A stretch of 32,962 nt of DNA, from NCBI GenBank assembly GCA_019873625.1, contig JAIOAW010000028.1, positions 1 to 32,962 on the forward strand, written 5' to 3'. Origin of the DNA: Chloroflexota bacterium (GTDB taxonomy: Bacteria > Chloroflexota > Anaerolineae > UBA1429). The notes beneath the pieces were generated by a model. The model saw only the letters and a program-made list of their open reading frames with translations. It was not told the DNA's origin and did not search any database. The translations under genes and the position numbers were made by a program. Positions 833 to 30,183 of this stretch are shown here, one piece after another (the first letter of the stretch is position 1; each line of letters starts with the position of its first letter).

Positions 833-1182
833 CAGAATAACCCAGGGATATCCAAACTGCCCGTCAAAGGCCCCATCCGCCGCTCGGCGAGTTCGGCGAC
901 CTTGGCCTGAGCGTCTTTGAAGGCGAGGAGGATCAGATCCTGCAGCATATCCACATCCTCAGGATCCACCACCTCCGGCGCGATGTGCACGGCGCGCACC
1001 TCTTGGGCGCCCGTCATCTCTACCTTGACGGCGCCCCCGCCGGCAGATCCCACGACGATTTCCTCAGCCAATTCCGCCTGAGCACGTTCTAACTGGGCCT
1101 GAAGGGCCTCGATCTGACGCATCATAGGCGGCGCGCCCCCGCCTGGGGCACCGCGAAAGCGCTTTTTCCCCTTGCTGGCCAT
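832..1182 (-). CDS. YbaB/EbfC-family nucleoid-associated protein
   Basis: Members of this family are small dimeric DNA-binding proteins that coat the nucleoid and are usually encoded between dnaX and recR. The 116-residue product has a basic, glycine-rich N-terminus (about residues 1-20), a coiled helix rich in Q, E and A (about 22-45), then the family beta-sheet with VGSAGGGAVKVEMTG and a C-terminal helix containing DLILLAFKDAQAK. The family's usual core is about 100-110 residues, so the length is normal with a slightly extended basic tail. The ATG overlaps the dnaX TAA (TAATG), and a GGGAGG Shine-Dalgarno lies inside the last dnaX codons, supporting this start and coupling. Confidence 0.93.
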   Translation of the reverse strand: MASKGKKRFRGAPGGGAPPMMRQIEALQAQLERAQAELAEEIVVGSAGGGAVKVEMTGAQEVRAVHIAPEVVDPEDVDMLQDLILLAFKDAQAKVAELAERRMGPLTGSLDIPGLF

Positions 1183-2951
1183 TATGTGCCTCCCTTTTTC
1201 TCCTGATCATACAGTTCAACCCGCGAAATGCGCCCGCCGCGCCGTTGGAGGTCTTTGACCACGGGGTGGTTCAGCAAACTTTGGCGGGCATCGAGCGCCT
1301 CATCGCTGGGCGAGCGCAGGTCCAGCGTGCCGCCGTTCGGCGGCGGGGCGGGCGCCGCGGCCTTTTGCTCCACCGCCTCGGGCTGGACGATGCATTGAAT
1401 GCGGCACGGCGTGCCCAGCGTGGTCGTGAGGACCTGCTCCACAAGGGCGCGTTTGTCATCCTGAGAGAGTTTGTCGCGGTGGAGCGCCCATTTGCACCCC
1501 AAGGTGATGACCTGCCCTTGCACGGCCACGGGATATGCATCGCGCAAGAGGGCCTGCACTTGCCGATCCAGGCTCCGCATCCGCAGGATGACGGCCTCCC
1601 AATGGCCCCGAACCCAATCGAGCGTGAGAGAAGGGGCCTCTCCCGCGCTCTCCACTCGAGATTCGGCAGGCGCCTTCTCAGCTGGCGGCCCCGAAGGCGC
1701 CGCTGCGGGCGCCTCGCTGGTAGGCGATGCCGCTGCAGCCACCTCGGGCGCCTCTTGCGCGGGGGGCGCCGCCTCTACCAAGGGCGTGCGCACAGGGGCT
1801 GGCTCGGGGCGTGTTCCCGTCGGCGCGCCCTTCCCTTCCGTTGCCTCTGGCATAGCCCCTTCGGAGGGCAGAAGGGCCTCTACCAAGGCGAGTTCAAGGG
1901 GCAGTTGTGGCCGCACAGCATTGCGCACCCGGGGGCCGGCATCGTTGAACAGGCGGATGGCCCGCACCAGGGCGCTCACGGGAAACCCCTCGCGCGAGGC
2001 CAACTCGCGCAAGGCGCGTACCGCCTCCGGTTCCAGGTTGGCGAGATGTTCCTCTCCCCCCACGCGCAATAGGAGCAGAGCGCGCAGGTACTCCAGCACC
2101 TCCCCCAGGAACTGCTGGGGTTCGGCCCCCTCGTCGAGGGCGTGGTTGATCGCCCGCAACCCCAAAGGGATGTCTCCTGTAGCCACGGCGCGCACCACAT
2201 CCAGCACCAGCGAGAGGGCCGGCGTGCCCAAAATCGCCTCCACCAAAGAGGCCGTGATCTCGCCCGTGCTGAACGAGGCGAGTTGATCGAGCAGGCTTTC
2301 GGCATCGCGAAAACTGCCGCCTGCACGCCGGGCAATGCGCTGAATGGCCTCCGGCGCGATCGAAAGCCCCTCTGCAGCGCAGATGCGGCGCAATTTGTCA
2401 GCGATGGCGTTCACCGAACCGCGCCGAAAATCGAACCGTTGGCAACGCGAGAGGATCGTATCGGGCAGGCGATGCGGCTCGGTGGTGCAAAGGATAAAGA
2501 TAACGTGCGATGGAGGCTCTTCGAGCGTCTTCAAGAGGGCGTTGAAGGCCTCCGTAGTGAGCATATGCACTTCGTCAATGACATAAACTTTGAAGCGGGA
2601 TTCCTGCGGCACAAAGGCCACCCGGTCGCGCAGGTCGCGGATTTCGTCAATGCCTCGGTTGGAGGCTGCATCAATCTCGATGAGGTCCAGCGAGCGCCCC
2701 TCGTTGATGTGCCGGCAGGTGGGGCACTGATTGCACGGGGGATTCTCCACGCCCCCGGTGCAATTGACGGCCTTGGCCAAAATGCGCGCCGTGGAGGTCT
2801 TGCCCGTGCCGCGCATCCCGGTGAACAGATAGGCATGCCCGATCCGCCCCGCCTTGATTTGATTTTGCAAGGTGCGGGTGATGTGCTCTTGGCCCAGGAT
2901 ATCTTCAAAGGTTTGCCCGCGCCACCGGTTGTAGAGCGCCTGCGTGGTCAT
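1182..2951 (-). CDS. dnaX: DNA polymerase III subunit gamma/tau
   Basis: This is the clamp-loader ATPase that loads the beta sliding clamp and bridges the replisome. Of 589 residues, 1-180 form the AAA+ core: Walker A GMRGTGKTS (45-53), zinc-binding cysteines C64, C73, C76 and C79, Walker B VIDEVHM (124-130), and the SRC arginine-finger motif (168-170). The clamp-loader collar follows to about 365. A long Pro/Ala/Glu linker (about 370-440) leads to a C-terminal tau-like domain. I see no A-rich slippery heptamer for programmed frameshifting, so gamma, if made, would need another mechanism. The start has GGAAAG about 8 nt upstream. It is the first gene of the dnaX-ybaB-recR operon. Confidence 0.97.
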   Translation of the reverse strand: MTTQALYNRWRGQTFEDILGQEHITRTLQNQIKAGRIGHAYLFTGMRGTGKTSTARILAKAVNCTGGVENPPCNQCPTCRHINEGRSLDLIEIDAASNRGIDEIRDLRDRVAFVPQESRFKVYVIDEVHMLTTEAFNALLKTLEEPPSHVIFILCTTEPHRLPDTILSRCQRFDFRRGSVNAIADKLRRICAAEGLSIAPEAIQRIARRAGGSFRDAESLLDQLASFSTGEITASLVEAILGTPALSLVLDVVRAVATGDIPLGLRAINHALDEGAEPQQFLGEVLEYLRALLLLRVGGEEHLANLEPEAVRALRELASREGFPVSALVRAIRLFNDAGPRVRNAVRPQLPLELALVEALLPSEGAMPEATEGKGAPTGTRPEPAPVRTPLVEAAPPAQEAPEVAAAASPTSEAPAAAPSGPPAEKAPAESRVESAGEAPSLTLDWVRGHWEAVILRMRSLDRQVQALLRDAYPVAVQGQVITLGCKWALHRDKLSQDDKRALVEQVLTTTLGTPCRIQCIVQPEAVEQKAAAPAPPPNGGTLDLRSPSDEALDARQSLLNHPVVKDLQRRGGRISRVELYDQEKKGGT

Positions 2952-3004
2952 AGGATCTTTCCATCGTGGGCGAATAGGACGGTTCGAGAGGCCCCGACAC
3001 GTCC

Positions 3005-3034
3005 ATTATGGGCACCCAAGGCCGAAAAGTCAAA
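3005..3034 (-). promoter_or_regulatory. Promoter of dnaX-ybaB-recR
   Basis: The minus strand has TTGACT (3034-3029), an 18-bp spacer, then CATAAT (3010-3005). Each box matches consensus at five of six positions. Predicted transcription start near 2998, about 47 nt before the dnaX ATG. Confidence 0.6.
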
Positions 3035-3094
3035 CGTCCTGGTCGCGCGGGCGATGAACCTTCCACCGTGCACCACTCATAGGGGATACGCGGG

Positions 3095-3122
3095 TTGGCC
3101 GCATAACGGATTGTGCTATAAT
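3095..3122 (+). promoter_or_regulatory. Promoter of the MFS transporter gene (extended -10)
   Basis: A perfect TATAAT (3117-3122) is preceded by TGC, giving an extended -10 TGnTATAAT. A weak TTGGCC -35 lies 16 bp upstream. The predicted start near 3129 is about 40 nt before the ATG at 3168. Confidence 0.6.
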
Positions 3123-3167
3123 CTCTCGGCCAAACGGTTTGAGCCATTTTTGCCAGCCCGGAGCGAG

Positions 3168-4493
3168 ATGAAGTCAGCACTTGCGGCCCATTGGGACCGA
3201 TTTTCGCGGCGCGTTTCGGCTAATCTAGAGGCCGTGGCCGAGCGCAATATCACGTTTCTTTACGTCGAGGTGGTGTTCGCCTCGATTTTGGCGGCGGCGA
3301 GTTCCTTCGATAGCGCCTACGTCCTGCGGCTGGGCGGTTCGAACCGCCTGGTGGGGCTTCTCGCCTCGCTGCCCGCGCTCATCGCCATCTTTGCCTATTT
3401 GCCTTCGGCGCGCATTTTGCAAAAGCAGAGGCACTATGCGCCTTGGGTGGTGGGGAGCCTGCTCCTCGCGCGCACGGGGTATGTGGCCATCTTGCTCCTG
3501 CCGTTCTTTCTCAAGCAGTTCCTGCCAGAGGCTACGGTCGGCATCCTCATCCTGATGACGCTCCCGTCGGTCTTTTTCTCCACGGGGTGGAGCCCCCTCT
3601 TGAGCGACGTCATCCCCGAACGGTCTCGCGCCACGGTCCTCGCCTGGCGCAGCATCCTGAGCAGCGCCACCGTTGCCTCGCTTACCTACTTGGCAGGGCG
3701 GATGCTGGATCGCGGCACCTTCCCGAGGAATTACCAATGGCTGTACGCTATTGGCTATGTGGGCGGGCTGATAAGCGTCCTCTTTGTGGCGCTGATTCGC
3801 GTGCCGGAACAGGCGGCAACGACCTTGCCGCTTACGGGGGAGCGGCAGGAATCGTTTGTGCACTCTGTCCTCTCGATGGTGCGCGAGAATAGGCGTTTTT
3901 CTTACCTCATCCTCAACACCTTTCTCTTTAACCTCGGCGCCTGGATGCTCGGGCCATTGTATATGATCTTTTTTGTGCGCCAGTTAAAGGCCACCGATAG
4001 TTGGGTAGGCCTGAACACGACCCTCGCGCACATTGGCGTGGTGGTGGGGTATTGGGTTTGGCGGCGCTTGACGCGCCGCTGGGGAGACGCCAAGACGCTT
4101 CTCATCGCCCTACCACTCACGGTAACGTATCCCTTTATGGTGTCGGCCTTTCCGCACCTCACGCCCATCCTCGTGGCCGGCTTCCTTATCAACGCGTTTG
4201 CGCCCGGGGTGAACCTCAGCCATAGCCTCATCTTCCTCGACCTCTTACCGAAAGGGCGCAAGCACGATGCGACAGCCCTCTATAGTATGGTGATGAACAT
4301 CGGGGCCTTTGCCTGCCCCCTCGTGGGCGTTGCGGTGGCTAACGCCATCGGCATCCTGCCGACGCTCCTCATCGGGGGGACGCTGCGCGTCTTGGGCGCG
4401 GCGATGTTTTACATTTTGCCCGTCAAAGGCGAAAGGCCCCCTTTCAACACACTCCTGCCCAAATTCCTGCGCCGCAGTTCCCCCAGCGCGTAA
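3168..4493 (+). CDS. Major facilitator superfamily transporter
   Basis: The 441-residue product is a polytopic inner-membrane protein with about twelve hydrophobic segments starting near residue 26, a central cytoplasmic loop (about 205-225), and short polar ends. This length and pattern fit MFS permeases; the LGGSNRLVGLLASLPAL region resembles the loop between the first two helices. Substrate cannot be inferred. An open frame runs upstream into dnaX territory, but the ATG at 3168 is chosen because GGAG precedes it by 6 nt and the extended -10 promoter lies at 3117-3122. It stands alone between the divergent dnaX operon and the amidohydrolase gene. A GC-rich inverted repeat (4510-4531) follows without a T-tract. 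Confidence 0.85.
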   Translation: MKSALAAHWDRFSRRVSANLEAVAERNITFLYVEVVFASILAAASSFDSAYVLRLGGSNRLVGLLASLPALIAIFAYLPSARILQKQRHYAPWVVGSLLLARTGYVAILLLPFFLKQFLPEATVGILILMTLPSVFFSTGWSPLLSDVIPERSRATVLAWRSILSSATVASLTYLAGRMLDRGTFPRNYQWLYAIGYVGGLISVLFVALIRVPEQAATTLPLTGERQESFVHSVLSMVRENRRFSYLILNTFLFNLGAWMLGPLYMIFFVRQLKATDSWVGLNTTLAHIGVVVGYWVWRRLTRRWGDAKTLLIALPLTVTYPFMVSAFPHLTPILVAGFLINAFAPGVNLSHSLIFLDLLPKGRKHDATALYSMVMNIGAFACPLVGVAVANAIGILPTLLIGGTLRVLGAAMFYILPVKGERPPFNTLLPKFLRRSSPSA

Positions 4494-4577: not shown

Positions 4578-6584
4578 ATGGCAGAGACCCTTCCCCATCA
4601 AACCGTCGAACGCGCCGATATCCTCCTCAAAGGCGGCACGGTCATCACGATGGATAGCCAGCGGCGCATCGTTTCACCGGGGGCGGTCGCCATCCGTGGG
4701 CGAGATATCCTAGCCGTCGGCCCCGCAGCGGAGATAGAGGCTCGCTATGCGGCCGAGCAAACCCTGGATTGCCGCGATCACATCGTGATGCCGGGCCTCG
4801 TCAATACCCATACGCATTTGCCGATGAGCCTCCTGCGCGGCCTGGCGGATGACCTGCGGCTCGATGTGTGGCTGCATGGCTACATCCTCCCCGTGGAGCG
4901 CGAGTTCGTAACGCCCGAATTCTGCTTCTTGGGCACCCTTTTGGCCTGCGCCGAGATGCTCCGCGGCGGGGTAACCTGCTTTGCCGATATGTACTATCAC
5001 GAAGAAGAGGTCGCCTGGGCCGCCGTGCAGGCCGGGATGCGCGGCCTGTGCGGAGAGACGATCACCAAACTCCCCACGCCCGACGCCAAGACCTACGAGC
5101 AGAGCCTGCAATACTGCGCCGACTTCCTGGCCCATTGGGCGGCCCATGAGACTATCGTCGCCGTGCCGGCGCCGCACTCCATCTATATGTGCACGCCCGA
5201 AATCCTGCGCGAGACGACCCAACTGGCTCGCCAGGCCGGCGTCCTCCAGATGATGCACGTCTCCGAAACGGCGGATGAGGTGGAACACTGGGTAGCCCAG
5301 ACGGCGATGCGCCCCTTCCGTTGGCTGGAGGATCAGGGCCTGCTGGAATGGCCCTTATTGGCTGCCCATTGCGTGCACATCAACGAGGAGGAGATGGTCC
5401 TGATGGCGCGCCACGGCGTGGGCGTGGCACACAACCCCACGAGCAATCTGAAACTCGCCAGCGGGTTCGCCCCCGTGGCGGGGATGCTGGCCCAAGGGAT
5501 TGCCGTCGGCCTCGGCACCGACGGCTGCGCTAGCAACAATGACCTGGATATGTGGGAGGAAATGCGCCTCGCCGCGCTCCTCGCCAAAGGCGTAACGGGT
5601 AGCCCCTTGGCCCTCCCCGCCGCCCAGGCCGTGGCTATGGCGACGATCGAAGGGGCACGCGCCCTGCATCTCGATCATCTCATCGGTTCGCTGGAGGCGG
5701 GCAAACGCGCCGATATCATCGTGGCGCGGCTGGACGATACCTATGCCGTGCCCCGTTTTGAGACGACCGGCCAGAACATCTATTCTCACCTCGTCTATGC
5801 CGCCAAGGCCTGCGCCGTGCGCGACGTGTTCGTGAACGGCCGCCTCGTCCTCCGCGATGGCCATCTCCTCACGGTGGATGAGGCCGAAGTGCGGGAACAG
5901 GCCTGGGCCATGGCCCGGCGCATCAACCGCTTTTTCATCGAGCGCGAAAAGAGCGTGCTCGATAAACTGGTGGATATCGGCACGCTCGAACAGCAAGAGA
6001 CCTTCGAGGTGCAGGCCAAGGGCCTCCTGCACGACGTGCAAACCTTCGCGCGCGGCTTGGAGCACCCCGAAATCCACATCACCCAACACACCTCGCGCGA
6101 CCAGTACGATACGTATTTTCTCTTTGCCGATCCCTCGCAAGGGCGCCTGCGCTACCGCGAGGATCACATCATCCAACCGGGAGGGGGCGTCCAGCCCGTT
6201 TACACGTTGACGCTCCTCGGCCCCGCCGCGGAGGCCGAATATGCTCACAGTGTGGTCCTCACCCGCTCGCGGTACACGGCCCCCGCCGACCGCAGTTTGC
6301 GCTTCTATCGCGAGTACTTTCAGCCCAGGGCCATCCGGGAAATCTCCAAGCACCGCGAGCGGTACCACATCCGTTACAAGGGGCTGGATTTCGCCGTGAA
6401 CCTCGACCGCATCACCCATCCCCCGCGAGAGGGATATTATGTCGAGATCAAGAGCCGCACCTGGAGCCAGCAAGACGCCGTGCGGAAAGCGAGCCTCATC
6501 GCCGAATTGCTGACCATCCTCGGCGCCCAGCCGGAGGATATGCTCCCCTTGGATTATGTGGATCTTTTTGATGAGGCGAAATAA
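4578..6584 (+). CDS. MTA/SAH-deaminase-type amidohydrolase fused to a CYTH-like domain
   Basis: Residues 1 to about 455 form a complete metal-dependent amidohydrolase of the SsnA/MtaD group (5'-methylthioadenosine or S-adenosylhomocysteine deaminases and chlorohydrolase relatives). HTHLPMSLLRG (78-88) carries metal ligands H78 and H80, with H227, E230, H264 and D315 in the expected MHVSE, AHCVH and GTDG contexts. Stand-alone members are about 430-450 residues; this one has about 210 more. The extra C-terminus (about 475-668) looks CYTH/class IV adenylate-cyclase-like: paired basic segments around RLRYRE (523-528) and LTRSRYT (561-567), HIRYKG, then YVEIKSRTWS (621-630) and a final helix. CYTH enzymes act on triphosphates, but this domain's activity is unknown. 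AAGGAG lies about 8 nt before the ATG. Confidence 0.85.
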   Translation: MAETLPHQTVERADILLKGGTVITMDSQRRIVSPGAVAIRGRDILAVGPAAEIEARYAAEQTLDCRDHIVMPGLVNTHTHLPMSLLRGLADDLRLDVWLHGYILPVEREFVTPEFCFLGTLLACAEMLRGGVTCFADMYYHEEEVAWAAVQAGMRGLCGETITKLPTPDAKTYEQSLQYCADFLAHWAAHETIVAVPAPHSIYMCTPEILRETTQLARQAGVLQMMHVSETADEVEHWVAQTAMRPFRWLEDQGLLEWPLLAAHCVHINEEEMVLMARHGVGVAHNPTSNLKLASGFAPVAGMLAQGIAVGLGTDGCASNNDLDMWEEMRLAALLAKGVTGSPLALPAAQAVAMATIEGARALHLDHLIGSLEAGKRADIIVARLDDTYAVPRFETTGQNIYSHLVYAAKACAVRDVFVNGRLVLRDGHLLTVDEAEVREQAWAMARRINRFFIEREKSVLDKLVDIGTLEQQETFEVQAKGLLHDVQTFARGLEHPEIHITQHTSRDQYDTYFLFADPSQGRLRYREDHIIQPGGGVQPVYTLTLLGPAAEAEYAHSVVLTRSRYTAPADRSLRFYREYFQPRAIREISKHRERYHIRYKGLDFAVNLDRITHPPREGYYVEIKSRTWSQQDAVRKASLIAELLTILGAQPEDMLPLDYVDLFDEAK

Positions 6585-7083: not shown

Positions 7084-7929
7084 ATGCGCATCGAAAATGT
7101 AAAGGCGCTGCAACGGCTGGCCTGGGAGTTGCGCCTCGATATCGTGCGGATGATGGGGCCGAACAAGGCGCATCATTTCGGCGGGTCCCTTTCGGCGGCC
7201 GATCTCGTAACGGCGATCTATTTCCACGCCCTGCGCTATGATCCCCAGAACCCCCGCTGGCCCGAGCGCGATCGCTTTGTGATGAGCAAGGGCCACTGCG
7301 TGCCCGCGCAATACGCGGCGCTCGCCCGGTTGGGGGTCTTCCCGCGCGAGGAACTGCCCACCCTCAAGACCTTGGGGAGCCGCCTACAAGGGCACCCGGC
7401 CGCCCATCTCTTACCGGGCATCGAGGCGTGCACGGGGTCGCTGGGCCAGGGGCTTTCCTTCGCCAATGGCATCGCCCTCGCCGGGCGGATGCAGGGGCTG
7501 GCCTTTCGCGTCTATTGCCTCCTCGGCGATGGCGAAACCCAAGAGGGGCAAGTGTGGGAGGCGGCCCGCACCACGGTGCGCCAATGCCTGACGAACGTCA
7601 TCGGCGTCATAGATTGCAACGGCCTCAAGGCGATGGACACCTCATACTGCGGGGCCGAAATCCCCGCCCTGGCGGAAAAGTGGCGCGCCTTTGGCTGGCG
7701 GGTGCGCGAGATAGATGGCCACGATATGGCGCAAATCTGCGCGGCGCTGGATTGGGCCATCGAGGAGCATCCCCAGCCGGCGATGATCATCGCCCGCACC
7801 GTCAAAGGCAAGGGCGTGCCCTTTATCGAGAACGAGCCGGATTATCACAACGCCGCGCTGACTCAGGAACAAATTGACCGTGCCATCCACGCCCTGCAAA
7901 TGCAGATGGCCCATATGGAGGAGGCCTGA
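7084..7929 (+). CDS. Transketolase, N-terminal (TPP-binding) subunit
   Basis: Transketolase moves two-carbon ketol units between sugar phosphates in the non-oxidative pentose phosphate pathway. This 281-residue protein is only the thiamine-pyrophosphate half. It shows SKGH (68-71), the GHP region near 103-105, TGSLGQGLS (117-125), and the diphosphate/Mg2+ motif beginning GDGETQEGQ (148-156) and ending at the DCN of IDCNG (176-180). The partner pyrimidine-binding half is encoded 3 bp downstream, so together they replace the single polypeptide of about 650 residues found in many bacteria. Split transketolases are common in archaea and several bacterial phyla. GGAAAGGA precedes the ATG. A related split dehydroxyacetone or 1-deoxyxylulose-type specificity cannot be excluded. 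Confidence 0.93.
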   Translation: MRIENVKALQRLAWELRLDIVRMMGPNKAHHFGGSLSAADLVTAIYFHALRYDPQNPRWPERDRFVMSKGHCVPAQYAALARLGVFPREELPTLKTLGSRLQGHPAAHLLPGIEACTGSLGQGLSFANGIALAGRMQGLAFRVYCLLGDGETQEGQVWEAARTTVRQCLTNVIGVIDCNGLKAMDTSYCGAEIPALAEKWRAFGWRVREIDGHDMAQICAALDWAIEEHPQPAMIIARTVKGKGVPFIENEPDYHNAALTQEQIDRAIHALQMQMAHMEEA

Positions 7930-7932
7930 CCG

Positions 7933-8880
7933 ATGGCCGAATGGAGACAGACGCGCTATGTCTATGGTGAGGCGCTCGTAGAGGCGGGCCGGCTGAACCC
8001 CCGCGTGGCCGTGCTGGATGCCGACCTGTACAAATCCACCCGCACCGTCCTCTTTCGCGAGGCCTTCCCCGAGCGGTTTGTGGATATCGGCATTGCGGAG
8101 ATGGATATGGTGAGCACGGCCGCCGGTATGGCCGCCACGGGGATGATCCCCTTTGCCAATTCGTTCGCCATCTTTATCACGGCGCACTGTTACGACCAGA
8201 TTCGCATCCAGATTTGCTACCCCGGTTTACACGTCATCTTGGCCGGGTCAAGCGCGGGCCTCACCCAAGGGCCAGACGGCGCCAGCCACCAATCCCTTGA
8301 AGATATCGCCCTGATGCGCGCCCTGCCCAAGATGCAGGTCCTGGTGCCGGCCGATGGCATCGAGACGCGCGCTATGACCTTGGCCGCGGCCAACGAACTC
8401 TCCGGCCCAATCTACCTGCGCTTGGGGCGCTACCCCGTGCCGGATATCCTCGATCCTTCCTATCGCTATCAGTTGGGCAAGGCGGCCATCCTACGGGAGG
8501 GGAAAGACGTAGCCCTCATCGCCTGCGGCCATATGGTCTACCCCGCCTTGCAGGCCGCGGAACGCCTGGCGGCGGAGGGAATCCAAGCCCTGGTGGTGAA
8601 TATGTCCACCATCAAGCCCCTCGATCGCGAGATCATCCTCCAAGCCCTGGGCGTGTGCGCCCTCGTGGTAACGGCCGAGGAACATAGCATCATCGGCGGC
8701 TTGGGGAGCGCCGTGGCGGAGGTGATGGCCGAGGAGGGCGCAGCGGTGCGCCTTGTGCGCTTGGGCACGCGGGATGTCTTTGGCGAATCGGCCACGGCCG
8801 ACGAACTCTTAGCCAAGCACGGCCTCACCGCCGAGGGCATCTCCCAAGCGGTGCGGAACAGCCTGCGCGCAAGGCCGTAA
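7933..8880 (+). CDS. Transketolase, C-terminal (pyrimidine-binding) subunit
   Basis: This 315-residue protein is the second half of a split transketolase. It contains the Pyr domain with the catalytic glutamate E56 in ERFVDIGIAEMD (about 47-58), the SSAGLTQGPDGASHQS segment and LEDIALMRALP. The C-terminal transketolase domain follows (about 190-305), including EEHSIIGGLGSAVAE and the GTRDVFGESA stretch. With the N-terminal subunit it would form an alpha2beta2 enzyme, with the TPP site at the subunit interface. Only 3 bp separate the genes, and a GGAGGAGG Shine-Dalgarno lies in the last codons of the upstream gene, so the two subunits should be made in step. The next gene, proB, has its own promoter. 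Confidence 0.93.
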   Translation: MAEWRQTRYVYGEALVEAGRLNPRVAVLDADLYKSTRTVLFREAFPERFVDIGIAEMDMVSTAAGMAATGMIPFANSFAIFITAHCYDQIRIQICYPGLHVILAGSSAGLTQGPDGASHQSLEDIALMRALPKMQVLVPADGIETRAMTLAAANELSGPIYLRLGRYPVPDILDPSYRYQLGKAAILREGKDVALIACGHMVYPALQAAERLAAEGIQALVVNMSTIKPLDREIILQALGVCALVVTAEEHSIIGGLGSAVAEVMAEEGAAVRLVRLGTRDVFGESATADELLAKHGLTAEGISQAVRNSLRARP

Positions 8881-8893
8881 GGACGGCGCCCAG

Positions 8894-8922
8894 TTGGTCG
8901 TGAGCCGTGCGCATGGTATAAT
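8894..8922 (+). promoter_or_regulatory. Promoter of proBA (extended -10)
   Basis: TGGTATAAT (8914-8922) is an extended -10 with a perfect hexamer. TTGGTC (8894-8899) lies 17 bp upstream. The predicted start near 8929 falls downstream of the longest in-frame start of proB, which supports the shorter GTG start at 8960. Confidence 0.6.
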
Positions 8923-8959
8923 CTCTCAAAAGGTTGACGAAGAGGAGGCCAGCCGCACC

Positions 8960-10090
8960 GTGCAAACGAAAGACAACGCCCCAACGCGCCCGTGGCAAAG
9001 GATCGTCGTCAAAGTGGGCACGAGCACCCTCACCGCAGGGGGCAACCGCCTCAGCCCGCCGCGTATGGTGGATCTCGTGCGGCAGATCAAGCGCTTGCGC
9101 GAGCATGGCGCGGACGTGGTGCTCGTTTCCTCGGGCGCCCAGCAGGCCGGCCGCGAGCGCCTGGGGAACCCGCCCGGCCAAAAGACGATTCCCTTCAAGC
9201 AGATGCTCGCCGCCGTGGGCCAGGGGCGCCTGATGCACCTGTGGGAGCAGTACTTTGAGTTGTATGATCTGATCGTAGCCCAGGTGCTCCTCACCCGCGA
9301 GGATATCGAAGATCGCCACCGTTACCTGAACATCCGCGATACGTTCGAGAGCCTCCTCCAGCGGGGCATCGTGCCCATCGTCAACGAGAACGACGCCGTG
9401 GCCACGGACGAAATCAAGGTGGGCGAGAACGACACGCTCGCCGCGATGGTGGCCAACGTGGTGGAGGCCGATCTCCTCGTCCTCCTCACCGATACGGACG
9501 GCCTCTACACCGCGGACCCCGCGAAGGACCCCACCGCCCGCCTCATCACCCAGGTAGATCACATTGACGAGACGATCTATGCCCTTGCCCAGGGGTCGCA
9601 TTCGGGCCTGGGCACAGGAGGGATGTATACCAAGATCGTCGCGGCGGATATGGCCATCCGCTGTGGCACATCGGTGGCCATCGCCAACGGCAGCCGCGAG
9701 AACGTGCTGGAGGGGATTTGGTCTCGCACCGTGCCGGCCACGTGGTTCCCGGCGCGCATCACCCCCTCCGAGGGACGCAAGCGCTGGATGCTGGCGCAGG
9801 CCATCACCGCCGGCGCCGTGGTGGTGGACGAGGGCGCTGCGACGGCGCTCACCCAGAAGGGGCGCAGCCTTTTGCCCGTGGGCATCAAAGAGGTGCGGGG
9901 CGAGTTTAACCGGGGGGCCATCGTTGCCATCCTAAGGAAAGATGGCCGTGAGATCGCCCGCGGCCTGGCGAACTATTCCGCCGCCGATTTACGCCGCCTC
10001 TTGGGCCAGCAATCCTCCGATATCGCCGATATCCTGGGCTATGACTACGGCCCGGAATTCATCCACCGCAACAAGATGGTGCTGCTATAA
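8960..10090 (+). CDS. proB: Glutamate 5-kinase
   Basis: ProB phosphorylates the gamma-carboxyl of L-glutamate with ATP, the first and usually proline-feedback-inhibited step of proline synthesis. The 376-residue product has the amino-acid-kinase fold, with VVKVGTSTL near residue 16, VLVSSGAQQAGRERL, VNENDAVATDEIKVGENDTL and LTDTDGLYTADP. A C-terminal PUA domain (about 285-370) begins near KRWMLAQAITAGA. Two-domain length matches E. coli and Bacillus enzymes (367-371 residues). The frame opens 22 codons earlier at a TTG, but that start would lie upstream of the predicted transcription start. GTG at 8960 has GAGGAGG about 11 nt upstream, so it is preferred. proA follows after 29 bp. Confidence 0.96.
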   Translation: MQTKDNAPTRPWQRIVVKVGTSTLTAGGNRLSPPRMVDLVRQIKRLREHGADVVLVSSGAQQAGRERLGNPPGQKTIPFKQMLAAVGQGRLMHLWEQYFELYDLIVAQVLLTREDIEDRHRYLNIRDTFESLLQRGIVPIVNENDAVATDEIKVGENDTLAAMVANVVEADLLVLLTDTDGLYTADPAKDPTARLITQVDHIDETIYALAQGSHSGLGTGGMYTKIVAADMAIRCGTSVAIANGSRENVLEGIWSRTVPATWFPARITPSEGRKRWMLAQAITAGAVVVDEGAATALTQKGRSLLPVGIKEVRGEFNRGAIVAILRKDGREIARGLANYSAADLRRLLGQQSSDIADILGYDYGPEFIHRNKMVLL

Positions 10091-10119
10091 CGCCGAGTTT
10101 CCATCAAGGAGGTAACCCA

Positions 10120-11397
10120 ATGGCCGAGGTCAACTTGCGCGCCATGGCCCTGAGCGCCCGCGCCGCCGGGCGCAAACTGGCCCTTCTCTCGACGGATCAG
10201 CGGAACGCCACCCTCCTCGAAATCGCCCGGCGGCTCGACGCCGTGGGCGAGGAACTGTGGGAGGCGAACCGCGCCGATTTGGAACAAGCCCGCGCGGAGG
10301 GCATTTCCCCCGCCCTTCTTGACCGTTCTACGCTCACCCCCAAGCGCGTCGCCGCGATGGCCCAGGGCTGCCGTGAGGTGGCCGCCTTGCCGGATCCCCT
10401 TGGCCAAGAGTTCGACGGGCGCCTCTTGCCCAACGGCCTGCGCCTCGCCAAGCGGCGCGTGCCCTTGGGCCTCATCGCCGTCATCTTTGAATCTCGGCCC
10501 AATGTAACCGCCGAGATCAGTTCCCTTTGCCTGAAGACGGGCAACGCCGTGATAATGCGCGGCGGGCGCGAGAGCCTACGCACGAACGGCGTGCTCATTG
10601 ATTTGATCCGTTCGGCCTGTGAGGCGACGGGCGTGCCGGCCGATGCCGTGCAACTTATCCGCTCCACCGACCGCGCCCTGGTGCCCGAACTCCTCGGGAT
10701 GGATGACCTCATTGATCTGGTCATTCCGCGCGGCGGGCAGGGTTTGCAGAACCTCGTGCGCCAGTATGCGCGAATGCCCGTCATCTACGGGGGCATCGGC
10801 GTGTGCCACCTGTTTGTGGATGCCTCGGCGGATATCGCGCGGAGCATCCCCGTCATCCACAACGCCAAGACGCAAGCCCCTTCCGTCTGCAACGCGCTCG
10901 ATACCGTCTTGGTGCACCGCGCCGTGGTCAAGGACCTCCTCCCGCCGATGGTCGCGGCCTTGAATGCCTCCGGCGTCAAAGTGTTGTGCGATCCACCTTC
11001 CCTCGCCGCTTTGGAGGGCGCTTCGGGCATCCAAAGCGACCTGGTAGCCCCCGCCACCGAAGAGGATTACGGCCGCGAGTTCCTGTCGCTCGTCCTTTCC
11101 GTCAAGGTGGTGGATTCGCTCGATGAGGCCATCGCCCACATCGCCCGCTATGGCACGAACCATTCGGATGGCATCCTCACGAACGACTATGCCAACGCCC
11201 AACGCTTCTTGAACGAGGTGGATTCGGCGGCGGTGTATGTGAACGCCTCCACGCGTTTTACCGATGGCGGACAGTTTGGCCTGGGGGCAGAGGTAGCCAT
11301 CTCTACCCAGCGGATGCATGCCCGTGGGCCATTGGGTTTGCAGGAATTGACCACCTACAAGTGGGTGGTGCAAGGCGATTATCACGTGCGAAAATAG
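10120..11397 (+). CDS. proA: Gamma-glutamyl phosphate reductase
   Basis: ProA reduces gamma-glutamyl phosphate to glutamate-5-semialdehyde with NADPH, the second proline-synthesis step, and commonly complexes with ProB. The 425-residue product is a full-length aldehyde-dehydrogenase-fold enzyme. The N-terminal helix region precedes the cofactor domain with PLGLIAVIFESRPNV (115-129), the catalytic cysteine is C257 in QAPSVCNALD (252-261), and the C-terminal part carries NHSDGI and FTDGGQFGLGAEVAISTQ. AAGGAGG lies just upstream of the ATG. It sits 29 bp after proB with no intervening promoter, and a strong terminator follows at 11408, defining a two-gene proBA operon. Confidence 0.97.
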   Translation: MAEVNLRAMALSARAAGRKLALLSTDQRNATLLEIARRLDAVGEELWEANRADLEQARAEGISPALLDRSTLTPKRVAAMAQGCREVAALPDPLGQEFDGRLLPNGLRLAKRRVPLGLIAVIFESRPNVTAEISSLCLKTGNAVIMRGGRESLRTNGVLIDLIRSACEATGVPADAVQLIRSTDRALVPELLGMDDLIDLVIPRGGQGLQNLVRQYARMPVIYGGIGVCHLFVDASADIARSIPVIHNAKTQAPSVCNALDTVLVHRAVVKDLLPPMVAALNASGVKVLCDPPSLAALEGASGIQSDLVAPATEEDYGREFLSLVLSVKVVDSLDEAIAHIARYGTNHSDGILTNDYANAQRFLNEVDSAAVYVNASTRFTDGGQFGLGAEVAISTQRMHARGPLGLQELTTYKWVVQGDYHVRK

Positions 11398-28549: not shown

Positions 28550-29122
28550 ATGGGCACCACCGAAGCACGCGGGTTCCTCTCCTGGTGGCGTCGCTACGGT
28601 ATGCGACTGGCAGCGCTCGCCTTTTCGCTCCTCATCACCGCCCTCATCGTCCTTTTTCGGAATCAACTCCGCGCCCTCGCGCATTATGGCTATTTGGGCA
28701 TCTTTTTGATCAGCGCCCTGGGGAATGCGACGGTCGTTTTCCCCGTGCCGAGTTTGGCCGTCGTCTTTGCGGGCGGGGGTGTACTCAACCCCATCTTGGT
28801 GGGGCTGGTGGCCGGCCTGGGCGAGCCATTGGGCGAATTGACAGGTTACCTGGCGGGGTATGGCGGCGGTGCCGTGGTGGAAAACGGCCTGCGCTTTGCT
28901 GCCATCCGCTCGTGGATGGAACGGCGGGGGTTTTTAACCCTTTTTGTCCTTTCGGCCATCCCCAACCCGCTGTTTGACCTGGCCGGCATCGCTGCAGGAA
29001 TACTGCGCTACCCCATCGGCAAATTCCTCTTAGCGTGCTGGCTGGGGAAGACGGCCAAAGCGCTCATCATCGCCGCTTTGGGGTCCGTGTCACTCAACCT
29101 CCTCGCACCCTGGCTAAGATGA
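28550..29122 (+). CDS. VTT/DedA-like membrane protein
   Basis: The 190-residue product is an integral membrane protein of the VTT (SNARE-associated/DedA) group. Its core is AGLGEPLGELTGYLAGYGGG (about 86-105), the re-entrant loop sequence with conserved acidic and glycine residues, followed by AIPNPLFDLAGIAAG (about 139-153), which resembles the RFxPxxR/PNP region of this family. Membrane segments occur around 18-36, 46-90, 126-150 and 155-185. DedA proteins have been linked to lipid scrambling, proton-driven transport and membrane homeostasis; the role here is not known. Translation probably starts at ATG 28550, 4 bp after the cyclophilin stop, with only a weak Shine-Dalgarno; a GTG lies just before it. 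Confidence 0.82.
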   Translation: MGTTEARGFLSWWRRYGMRLAALAFSLLITALIVLFRNQLRALAHYGYLGIFLISALGNATVVFPVPSLAVVFAGGGVLNPILVGLVAGLGEPLGELTGYLAGYGGGAVVENGLRFAAIRSWMERRGFLTLFVLSAIPNPLFDLAGIAAGILRYPIGKFLLACWLGKTAKALIIAALGSVSLNLLAPWLR

Positions 29123-29137
29123 ATCGCTTGAGAAGGC

Positions 29138-29166
29138 TTGACACGGCGCTTCGGCCCATCTATCCT
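29138..29166 (+). promoter_or_regulatory. Promoter of the lipoprotein gene, apparently leaderless
   Basis: Perfect TTGACA (29138-29143), 17 bp, TATCCT (29161-29166). A start 6-8 bases after the -10 falls at or next to the ATG at 29173. No Shine-Dalgarno is visible, so the mRNA may be leaderless. Confidence 0.6.
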
Positions 29167-29172
29167 TGCGCT

Positions 29173-30183
29173 ATGGCGCCTTTGCGTTTTGCCCCCTCGA
29201 TATGCCCTGGGCGTTTGGCCCACATCCCTTGGCGGTGCGCGGCCGCTTTGGGCTTGCTCCTGGGCGCTTTGCTTTTGGCGGGCTGTGCGCAAGGCCCGCT
29301 CCCACCGACACAACCCCCATCGAGGCCCCCTACGCGGGTGGAGACGCCAGCGCCGCTCGAGTTCCAGTTGGCGCGGCCCATCGGCAGCCAAACCTCTTTA
29401 CAGGCCCAGGCGCCCTTTACGGTTACACTTGAGAACTGCGCGGGCGGTCAGCCGCGCACCCAAACGTTTACGGAGACGCTCTCCCTCCCTCTCGATGGCG
29501 CCGTGCGCCTCCCCAGCCCTCCGGAGGGCCTGCAGGCCGAGGCCGGGGTTATCGCCGCCGCCGCGCGCTCTTTGTATGGCCTGGATCGGGAACGCACCAT
29601 CGAGGAGCGCCTCGAGGCAGTCGCCCCGCCCGCTGGGCGCGCCGTCTATCGCGCCCATTGGGAAGAGGTATGGGATGAAAACACCCTTCAAGTGCACCGA
29701 GGCGAGGAGATCATCGAGACGATTCCGCTGAGCGCGCTCATCGGGGCGCGGCTCGTCACCGAGGCGGTGATCACCGAGACCTGCCCCTCGCGGGGAACGG
29801 GAGGAGCGGGCCTGGCGGGGGACGCCCAGACCGCGGCTGCGCTCGTGCGCGCCTATCTCGAACGGTTGAGCCAAGAGGATTACGAGGGGGCCTACACCCT
29901 CCTTGCGGCCGATTACCGCCGGCGCGTGCCGTTCGACCGCTACCTGGAGGGCTATGAGCCGGTGGCCGAGATCGCGGTAGAAGACGTGCAAACGACGCAC
30001 GTTGAGCCAACCTATGCCGTCGTCGAGGCGCATCTGACGGTGGGCCTGCGCCGCCAAGGCCAAATCGTCTCTGCGCCCTGGCTCGCCACATACTATCTCG
30101 TGCGCCAGATGGGGGGCGACCCTTGGGAGTGGGCCATCGCCGATGTCATTATGCTGCCCACCTCGCCTATGGGTATGCCCTGA
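29173..30183 (+). CDS. Predicted lipoprotein with C-terminal NTF2-like region
   Basis: The 336-residue product has a type II signal peptide: basic N-terminus, hydrophobic stretch (about 23-36) and lipobox LLLAGC with C38 as the lipidated residue. A proline-rich spacer (about 41-60) tethers the mature protein. Residues about 60-200 are of unknown fold with two further cysteines. The last third (about 215-330) begins [32 protein letters not shown], which looks like an NTF2-like/SnoaL cone fold. A frame reaches further upstream into the VTT gene, but ATG 29173 gives the signal peptide and lies exactly at the predicted transcription start. Function unknown. AICAR transformylase follows after 31 bp. 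Confidence 0.75.

Follow-up and report, generated by a model that had tools for sequence, protein, structure and literature searches.

In the characterised CYTH triphosphatases, the metals of the tunnel are bound by acidic residues. In SaTTM, metal 2 is coordinated by E5, E7 and E137, and metal 1 by E7 and E135 (PMC8233210). The acidic patch of AtTTM3 is composed of Glu-2, Glu-4, Glu-90 and Glu-171, and mutation of AtTTM3 Glu-4 or Glu-169, or of ygiF Glu-6 or Glu-160, impairs activity (PMC4641920). CYTH lineages without complete motifs are still active (PMC8233210). As a rule, a CYTH domain receives the label of adenylate cyclase or triphosphatase on the strength of its fold only. A second group of interest is formed by the methylthioadenosine (MTA)/S-adenosylhomocysteine/adenosine deaminases, which are proteins of about 400-480 aa without a CYTH domain.

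The window analysed here, a stretch of 32,962 nucleotides from a Chloroflexota bacterium, carries a 668-aa open reading frame with an ATG start in which both kinds of domain are joined. Such an amidohydrolase-CYTH fusion had been proposed in a preliminary description, and profile searches bear it out: with hmmscan, Amidohydro_1 matches residues 69-424 (E 2e-70) and CYTH (PF01928) matches residues 496-644 (E 9.8e-7 when the full-length protein is searched), and residues 470-668 alone pass the PF01928 gathering cut-off (E 6.8e-8, 33.0 bits against 23.2). The AlphaFold2 model of the whole protein, built with an alignment from 29 orthologues, has a mean pLDDT of 89.2 and a pTM of 0.82. In the literature searched, whose coverage leaves out most subscription journals, no CYTH-amidohydrolase or CYTH-deaminase fusion was described, in agreement with the earlier remark that no function is described for one; the architecture itself will be visible in sequence databases. 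The features of the fusion are collected in Table 1.

Table 1. Positions in the window of the amidohydrolase-CYTH fusion, its domains and its motifs
Feature	Positions	Strand	Basis
Amidohydrolase-CYTH fusion, entire coding sequence, 668 aa	4578..6584	+	Single ~660-700 aa frame in almost all orthologues that no contig end truncates
Amidohydrolase (MTA/adenosine-type deaminase) domain, residues 11-453	4608..5936	+	Pfam Amidohydro_1 2e-70; Z 56.4 vs 4DZH, 55.9 vs 4DYK, 55.6 vs 4F0R
HxH metal motif, His78 and His80	4809..4817	+	Invariant, 51/51
HVSE, His227 (presumed metal ligand) and Glu230 (presumed catalytic)	5256..5267	+	Invariant in 51 aligned fusions
His264, strand 6	5367..5369	+	Invariant in 51 aligned fusions
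Asp315, strand 8, presumed metal ligand	5520..5522	+	Invariant in 51 aligned fusions
Predicted helical connector joining both domains, residues 435-467	5880..5978	+	Secondary structure of the model
CYTH/triphosphate-tunnel domain, residues 470-663	5985..6566	+	Pfam, AlphaFold2, structure matches, profile matches of orthologues
ExQxK at residues 477-481, where CYTH proteins have their hallmark ExExK	6006..6020	+	Invariant, 30/30 and 51/51; Q479 aligned with the second Glu
DxY (D511, Y513), phosphate-side motif, kept	6108..6116	+	Invariant; role of DxY from PMC8233210
RxR (R525, R527), putative phosphate-binding arginines, kept	6150..6158	+	Invariant; aligned with SaTTM LRLR
R563-x-R565, R565 at the acidic-patch Glu position (AtTTM3 Glu-90)	6264..6272	+	R565 in 49/51, Cys in 2; ygiF RPE alignment
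KxRxR (K591, R593, R595), basic tunnel strand	6348..6362	+	Invariant
NxD (N608, D610)	6399..6407	+	Invariant
ExK (E623, K625) in place of CYTH ExE; E623 at the metal-1 Glu, K625 at a metal-2 position	6444..6452	+	Invariant; aligned with SaTTM E135/E137

Several other features of the window were noted. Downstream of the fusion, a transketolase is split into two genes lying 3 bases apart, one for the thiamine-binding half (7084-7929) and one for the pyrimidine-binding and C-terminal half (7933-8880). The region 8894-11397 carries proB, encoding glutamate 5-kinase with a PUA domain, and then proA, both scoring over curated cut-offs. The 783-aa frame at 2142-4493 is over-extended: the start of the MFS transporter probably lies near 3111, and the upstream part is antisense to dnaX (1182-2951, minus strand). 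A 382-aa frame at 29035-30183 has no Pfam match at E 0.001.

Since the assembly of this genome consists of 47 contigs, a chance joining of genes, a misassembly or an annotation artefact has to be considered, but the distribution of the fusion leaves practically no room for it: the identical fused frame occurs in well over 100 genomes, among them the complete one of Herpetosiphon aurantiacus. The C-domain is present in 39 of 60 relatives. A survey of architectures across the Chloroflexota, an idea already put forward in the preliminary description, found the fusion in 118 of 399 genomes chosen to be at least 90% complete; the carriers span more than a single class and include Herpetosiphon. Nearly all matches sit in open frames of 650-750 aa, and three short or seemingly unfused frames that were followed up (G018, G187 and G365) each stop at a contig end; a few copies carry an internal stop or a frame shift. 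In the assembly of Herpetosiphonaceae KatS3mg057, the fused gene has lost its frame in the N-terminal part, probably because of a sequencing error or because it is a pseudogene. A scan of GTDB genomes returned at least 561 encoded relatives. Among the best 80 are those of the complete genome of Herpetosiphon aurantiacus DSM 785 and of two MAGs that bear the labels Deltaproteobacteria and Bdellovibrio. The copies of these two MAGs, with Gly/Cys at R563/R565, are nested among those of Chloroflexota, so that horizontal transfer is possible; in the class of these MAGs, two of the three genomes examined carry the fusion.

The tree built from the deaminase domain has all 51 fused rows on one side of a branch with an SH-aLRT of 96 and the unfused paralogues, whose branches are long, on the other. 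Compared pair by pair, N-domain and C-domain identities (means of 56% and 51%) correlate with an r of 0.73, as expected for one inherited unit. The joint deaminase-tunnel form is old and widespread in Chloroflexota, and we read it as vertically inherited. Ordinary stand-alone CYTH proteins are also encoded in several Chloroflexota genomes, and some that were inspected carry ExExK and ExE; the genome of the window encodes the fused CYTH protein only. In five of the Chloroflexota genomes (G203, G184, G196, G099 and G236) and in others, PF01928 matches fall in frames of 500-1270 aa unlike this fusion, and further CYTH architectures may thus exist in the phylum.

The N-domain is predicted to adopt the TIM barrel with composite domain of MTA/adenosine-type deaminases. 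Its nearest solved structures are 4F0R, 4DZH, 4DYK and 4GBD, the first three superimposing with Z-scores of 55-56 and an rmsd of 1.4-1.7 at 37-42% identity. Residues His 78, 80, 200, 227 and 264, Glu230 and Asp315 are identical across the 51 aligned fusions, and we take His78/His80, His227, Glu230, His264 and Asp315 to be metal or catalytic residues. The deaminase had been described as a complete enzyme of SsnA/MtaD type; its metal ligands are indeed complete, but the type is that of MTA/adenosine deaminases, and SsnA identity was rejected since the score against TIGR03314 is 183.3 bits for a cut-off of 455.5. No curated equivalog cut-off is reached by the domain, the best being NF006549 (TRZ/ATZ hydrolase, 466 against 540). 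The substrates are probably adenosine-like waste products of S-adenosylmethionine (SAM).

Among the open reading frame families around 81 loci, no gene partner is conserved throughout the phylum, and it was the genome search that brought up a link to MTA phosphorylase (TIGR01694). The gene of this enzyme lies less than 6 kb from the fusion in six relatives, each of another family (G015, G030, G032, G034, G035 and G040); in the first four of these, the two genes face each other convergently and the matches are separated by less than ~450 bases. It also adjoins the fusion or lies near it at loci L045, L046, L056 and L074. This proximity supports a role of the fusion close to MTA or similar nucleosides. 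At locus L070, the neighbouring phosphorylase carries TDYDVW (TDYDxW), passes the cut-off of the MTA model and stays short of that of the methylthioinosine model. It therefore probably cleaves MTA itself, without prior deamination, and the fused deaminase may then serve 5'-deoxyadenosine, S-adenosylhomocysteine or adenosine. AhcY was found in all 41 relatives searched, as a fragment in two; the presence of AhcY and MTA phosphorylase in the genome of the window and in most relatives counts against the reading that we favour below. As a separate observation, a gene resembling pyrimidine-nucleoside (thymidine) phosphorylase, named by sequence, is the immediate upstream neighbour, on the opposite strand, at six loci (L041, L044, L048, L080, L091 and L096). 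Replacement of the classical adenosine deaminase was also considered and rejected: ADA (PF00962) has no match in the genome of the window, and it occurs in about one third of the relatives with and without the fusion, hence without complementarity.

A sequence search of the PDB with the C-domain gave chance matches only and no CYTH protein, so its fold model was used for comparison. Modelled alone, the domain has a mean pLDDT of 88.6 and is closest to the archaeal CYTH protein 2EEN (Z 18.0, rmsd 2.5, 170 residues aligned), followed by the class IV cyclase 3N0Z (Z 16.5), SaTTM 7NS9 (Z 16.1), ThTPase 5A64 (Z 14.0), ygiF 5A60 (Z 13.8) and AtTTM3 (within 13-14). Vtc4 (Z 9.7) and plant TTM1 are present in the ranking below the archaeal and cyclase-type CYTH proteins. 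Among the orthologous C-domains, 26 of 30 match CYTH by themselves (E up to 1). By profile and by model, this region, at about residues 476-663, thus belongs to the CYTH superfamily, with the predicted eight-stranded barrel of triphosphate tunnels. The similarity suspected for residues 470-668 was therefore found, and a known unrelated C-terminal domain, which the preliminary description had considered as the alternative, did not turn up.

The C-domains of the fusions average 51% identity, yet E477, Q479, K481, D511, Y513, R525, R527, K591, R593, R595, D610, E623 and K625 are identical in all 51. This pattern bears on the idea that the CYTH domain is a ligand-free module for structure or oligomerisation, comparable to the same fold in the Mediator subunits Med18/Med20. 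Tunnel folds without enzymatic function are known, and the fold matches of the C-domain include some, but the invariant residues include charged tunnel residues and not a surface patch alone, and the closest deaminases function without such a domain, which makes this idea unlikely. The invariance of the tunnel residues at such a mean identity rather suggests a site that was selected and repurposed, not one that decayed.

Two hallmarks of the superfamily are altered in this invariant set, a feature that the preliminary description had missed. ExExK is changed to ExQxK (E477, Q479, K481) in every aligned fusion (30/30 and 51/51), and ExE to ExK (E623, K625; 51/51). ExQxK was also read at 79 of the 80 scanned loci, the remaining one being cut by a contig edge; this set was retrieved with a pattern including KSRTWS, which introduces a bias for Lys and none for Gln. 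Alignments of profiles (hhalign) with canonical CYTH sets gave E-values of 2.4e-6 and 7.7e-5, each for a single comparison. Q479 is aligned with the second Glu of ExExK in both the ygiF and the SaTTM-type alignments, and the SaTTM set pairs K625 with E137, the second Glu of ExE. L547 is aligned with the tunnel Lys (AtTTM3 K76), a position mostly occupied by Thr or hydrophobic residues in the fusions, and R565, which is Arg in 49 of 51 copies and Cys in two non-Chloroflexota MAGs, takes the position of the RxE Glu that belongs to the acidic patch. The acidic patch positions thus carry Gln, Arg and Lys at three of four, with Glu kept at one. In strand 8, E623/K625 are offset by two residues from the E160/E162 pair of ygiF when that protein is the reference; the SaTTM-type alignment was preferred because its GxFxExE spacing matches. 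The assignment of this strand carries some uncertainty, and the alternative register would additionally remove the metal-1 Glu.

The residues lost in the fusion tunnel correspond to metal site 2 of the characterised triphosphatases (PMC4641920, PMC8233210). Since this site is the catalytic one in the published mechanisms, canonical triphosphate hydrolysis by the tunnel appears unlikely, and the chemistry implied in the preliminary description, hydrolysis or cyclisation of a triphosphate, finds no support in the residues, with ExQxK and ExK in every aligned copy and no cyclase signature. Of the motifs that mark catalytic TTM triphosphatases and ThTPases, RxR and DxY are present, and ExExK and the strand-8 ExE are not. 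Judged by the published motif rules, the domain fits none of three named kinds: not a canonical TTM, given its ExQxK and ExK; not a thiamine triphosphatase, as W/YxRxR is missing and no conserved Trp/Tyr stands two residues ahead of R525 (rule from PMC8233210); and not a class IV adenylate cyclase, as the HFxxxxExExK signature is missing (no HF) and residue 525 is Arg in all copies, not a small residue.

Loss of metal site 2 is, however, no proof of lost catalysis, because class IV cyclases, whose ExE has no second Glu, plant TTM1/2, which have neither motif, and Vtc4, which has no acidic patch, are all catalytic. The fusion could then be a bifunctional enzyme, in which the tunnel still acts as triphosphatase or cyclase beside the deaminase, for instance on tripolyphosphate from SAM synthetase or cobalamin adenosyltransferase. 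The intact CYTH fold with most phosphate-binding residues invariant, the retention of E477 and of the metal-1 Glu E623, and the activity of other CYTH lineages without full motifs (PMC8233210) are consistent with such an enzyme. Nevertheless, we consider it rather unlikely, since both second Glu residues are replaced in all copies, the Glu-90 position is Arg in 49 of 51, the AtTTM3 and ygiF mutations cited above impair activity, the HF signature of cyclases is missing and the tunnel Lys is mostly Thr or hydrophobic.

The substitutions also recall Vtc4, and the tunnel might accordingly transfer or polymerise phosphate from ATP, or thread polyphosphate, with a basic patch and metal site 1 only. 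The positions changed to Gln, Arg and Lys are among the four that hold basic residues in Vtc4, a polymerase for which metal 1 has been shown (PMC4641920), and PPK1 and PPK2 have no match in the genome of the window. On the other hand, the fold resembles that of Vtc4 (Z 9.7) far less than that of CYTH enzymes (Z 18), membrane and SPX parts are absent, and relatives with the fusion may have or lack PPK genes with no pattern, for which reason a polyphosphate link through PPK1/PPK2 was rejected. A Vtc4-like activity is therefore very unlikely.

The reading that we favour, with a probability of about 45%, is that of an MTA/5'-deoxyadenosine/adenosine-type deaminase carrying a ligand-binding, possibly regulatory triphosphate tunnel that has lost hydrolysis. 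It builds on the fusion itself, the folds, the conservation, the altered motifs, the single fused clade and the adjacency of MTA phosphorylase in some lineages, and we infer from there the substrate, the ligand, the loss of hydrolysis and the regulation or coupling. The N-terminal domain would catalyse metal-dependent deamination of 6-aminopurine nucleosides derived from S-adenosylmethionine or adenosine, namely MTA, 5'-deoxyadenosine, S-adenosylhomocysteine and adenosine. The C-terminal tunnel appears to retain the residues that grip a phosphate chain and the metal-1 Glu, the acidic metal-2 site having been converted to Gln, Arg and Lys. It would probably bind a triphosphate-like or other polyanionic ligand, such as ATP or tripolyphosphate, without hydrolysing it, and the bound ligand could adjust the activity or assembly of the deaminase. 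Deamination and triphosphate level could possibly be linked in this way, by sensing or allostery.

A phosphate grip that is kept while the catalytic metal site is gone in all aligned copies points to sensing or to other chemistry. More speculatively, and as a proposal that we hold to be doubtful but worth stating, the tunnel could define a new CYTH subfamily: basic and with one metal, it would sense triphosphate or polyphosphate allosterically, or act as a new phosphotransferase, within an enzyme that clears SAM-derived nucleosides. If this is true, methionine/SAM recycling would be tied directly to the energy or phosphate state across Chloroflexota. The fusion thus offers a candidate link between the salvage of SAM by-products and a triphosphate signal, and Herpetosiphon is a culturable genus that carries it. 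It is also a warning against labelling this protein as cyclase or triphosphatase.

Compared with known systems, residues 11-453 of the fusion share the fold of the MTA/S-adenosylhomocysteine/adenosine deaminases from C. violaceum (4F0R/4F0S), P. aeruginosa (4DYK/4GBD), X. campestris (4DZH) and T. maritima (TM0936), with Z-scores of 49-56 and 35-42% identity, and keep their metal and catalytic residues; the difference lies in the additional CYTH domain. With the CYTH/triphosphate tunnel metalloenzymes (PH1819 2EEN, SaTTM 7NS9, CyaB 3N0Z, ThTPase, ygiF and AtTTM3), the fusion has in common the fold, the strand order, RxR, DxY, the metal-1 Glu and the first Glu and Lys of the hallmark, whereas ExExK and ExE are replaced by ExQxK and ExK, RxE has mostly become RxR, the tunnel Lys is gone and identity is only ~13-22%. 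Like the tunnel of the polyphosphate polymerase Vtc4, that of the fusion has non-acidic residues at most acidic-patch positions and keeps the metal-1 Glu, but the fold match is weak, SPX and membrane parts are absent and the context differs. Finally, the known CYTH fusions, with CHAD in ygiF, a phosphoribulokinase-type kinase in plant TTM1/2, an HD hydrolase or an exopolyphosphatase, likewise combine CYTH with a second domain, enzymatic or binding, of nucleotide or phosphate metabolism; here the partner is an amidohydrolase deaminase and the CYTH domain is C-terminal, an arrangement absent from the architectures in PMC8233210.
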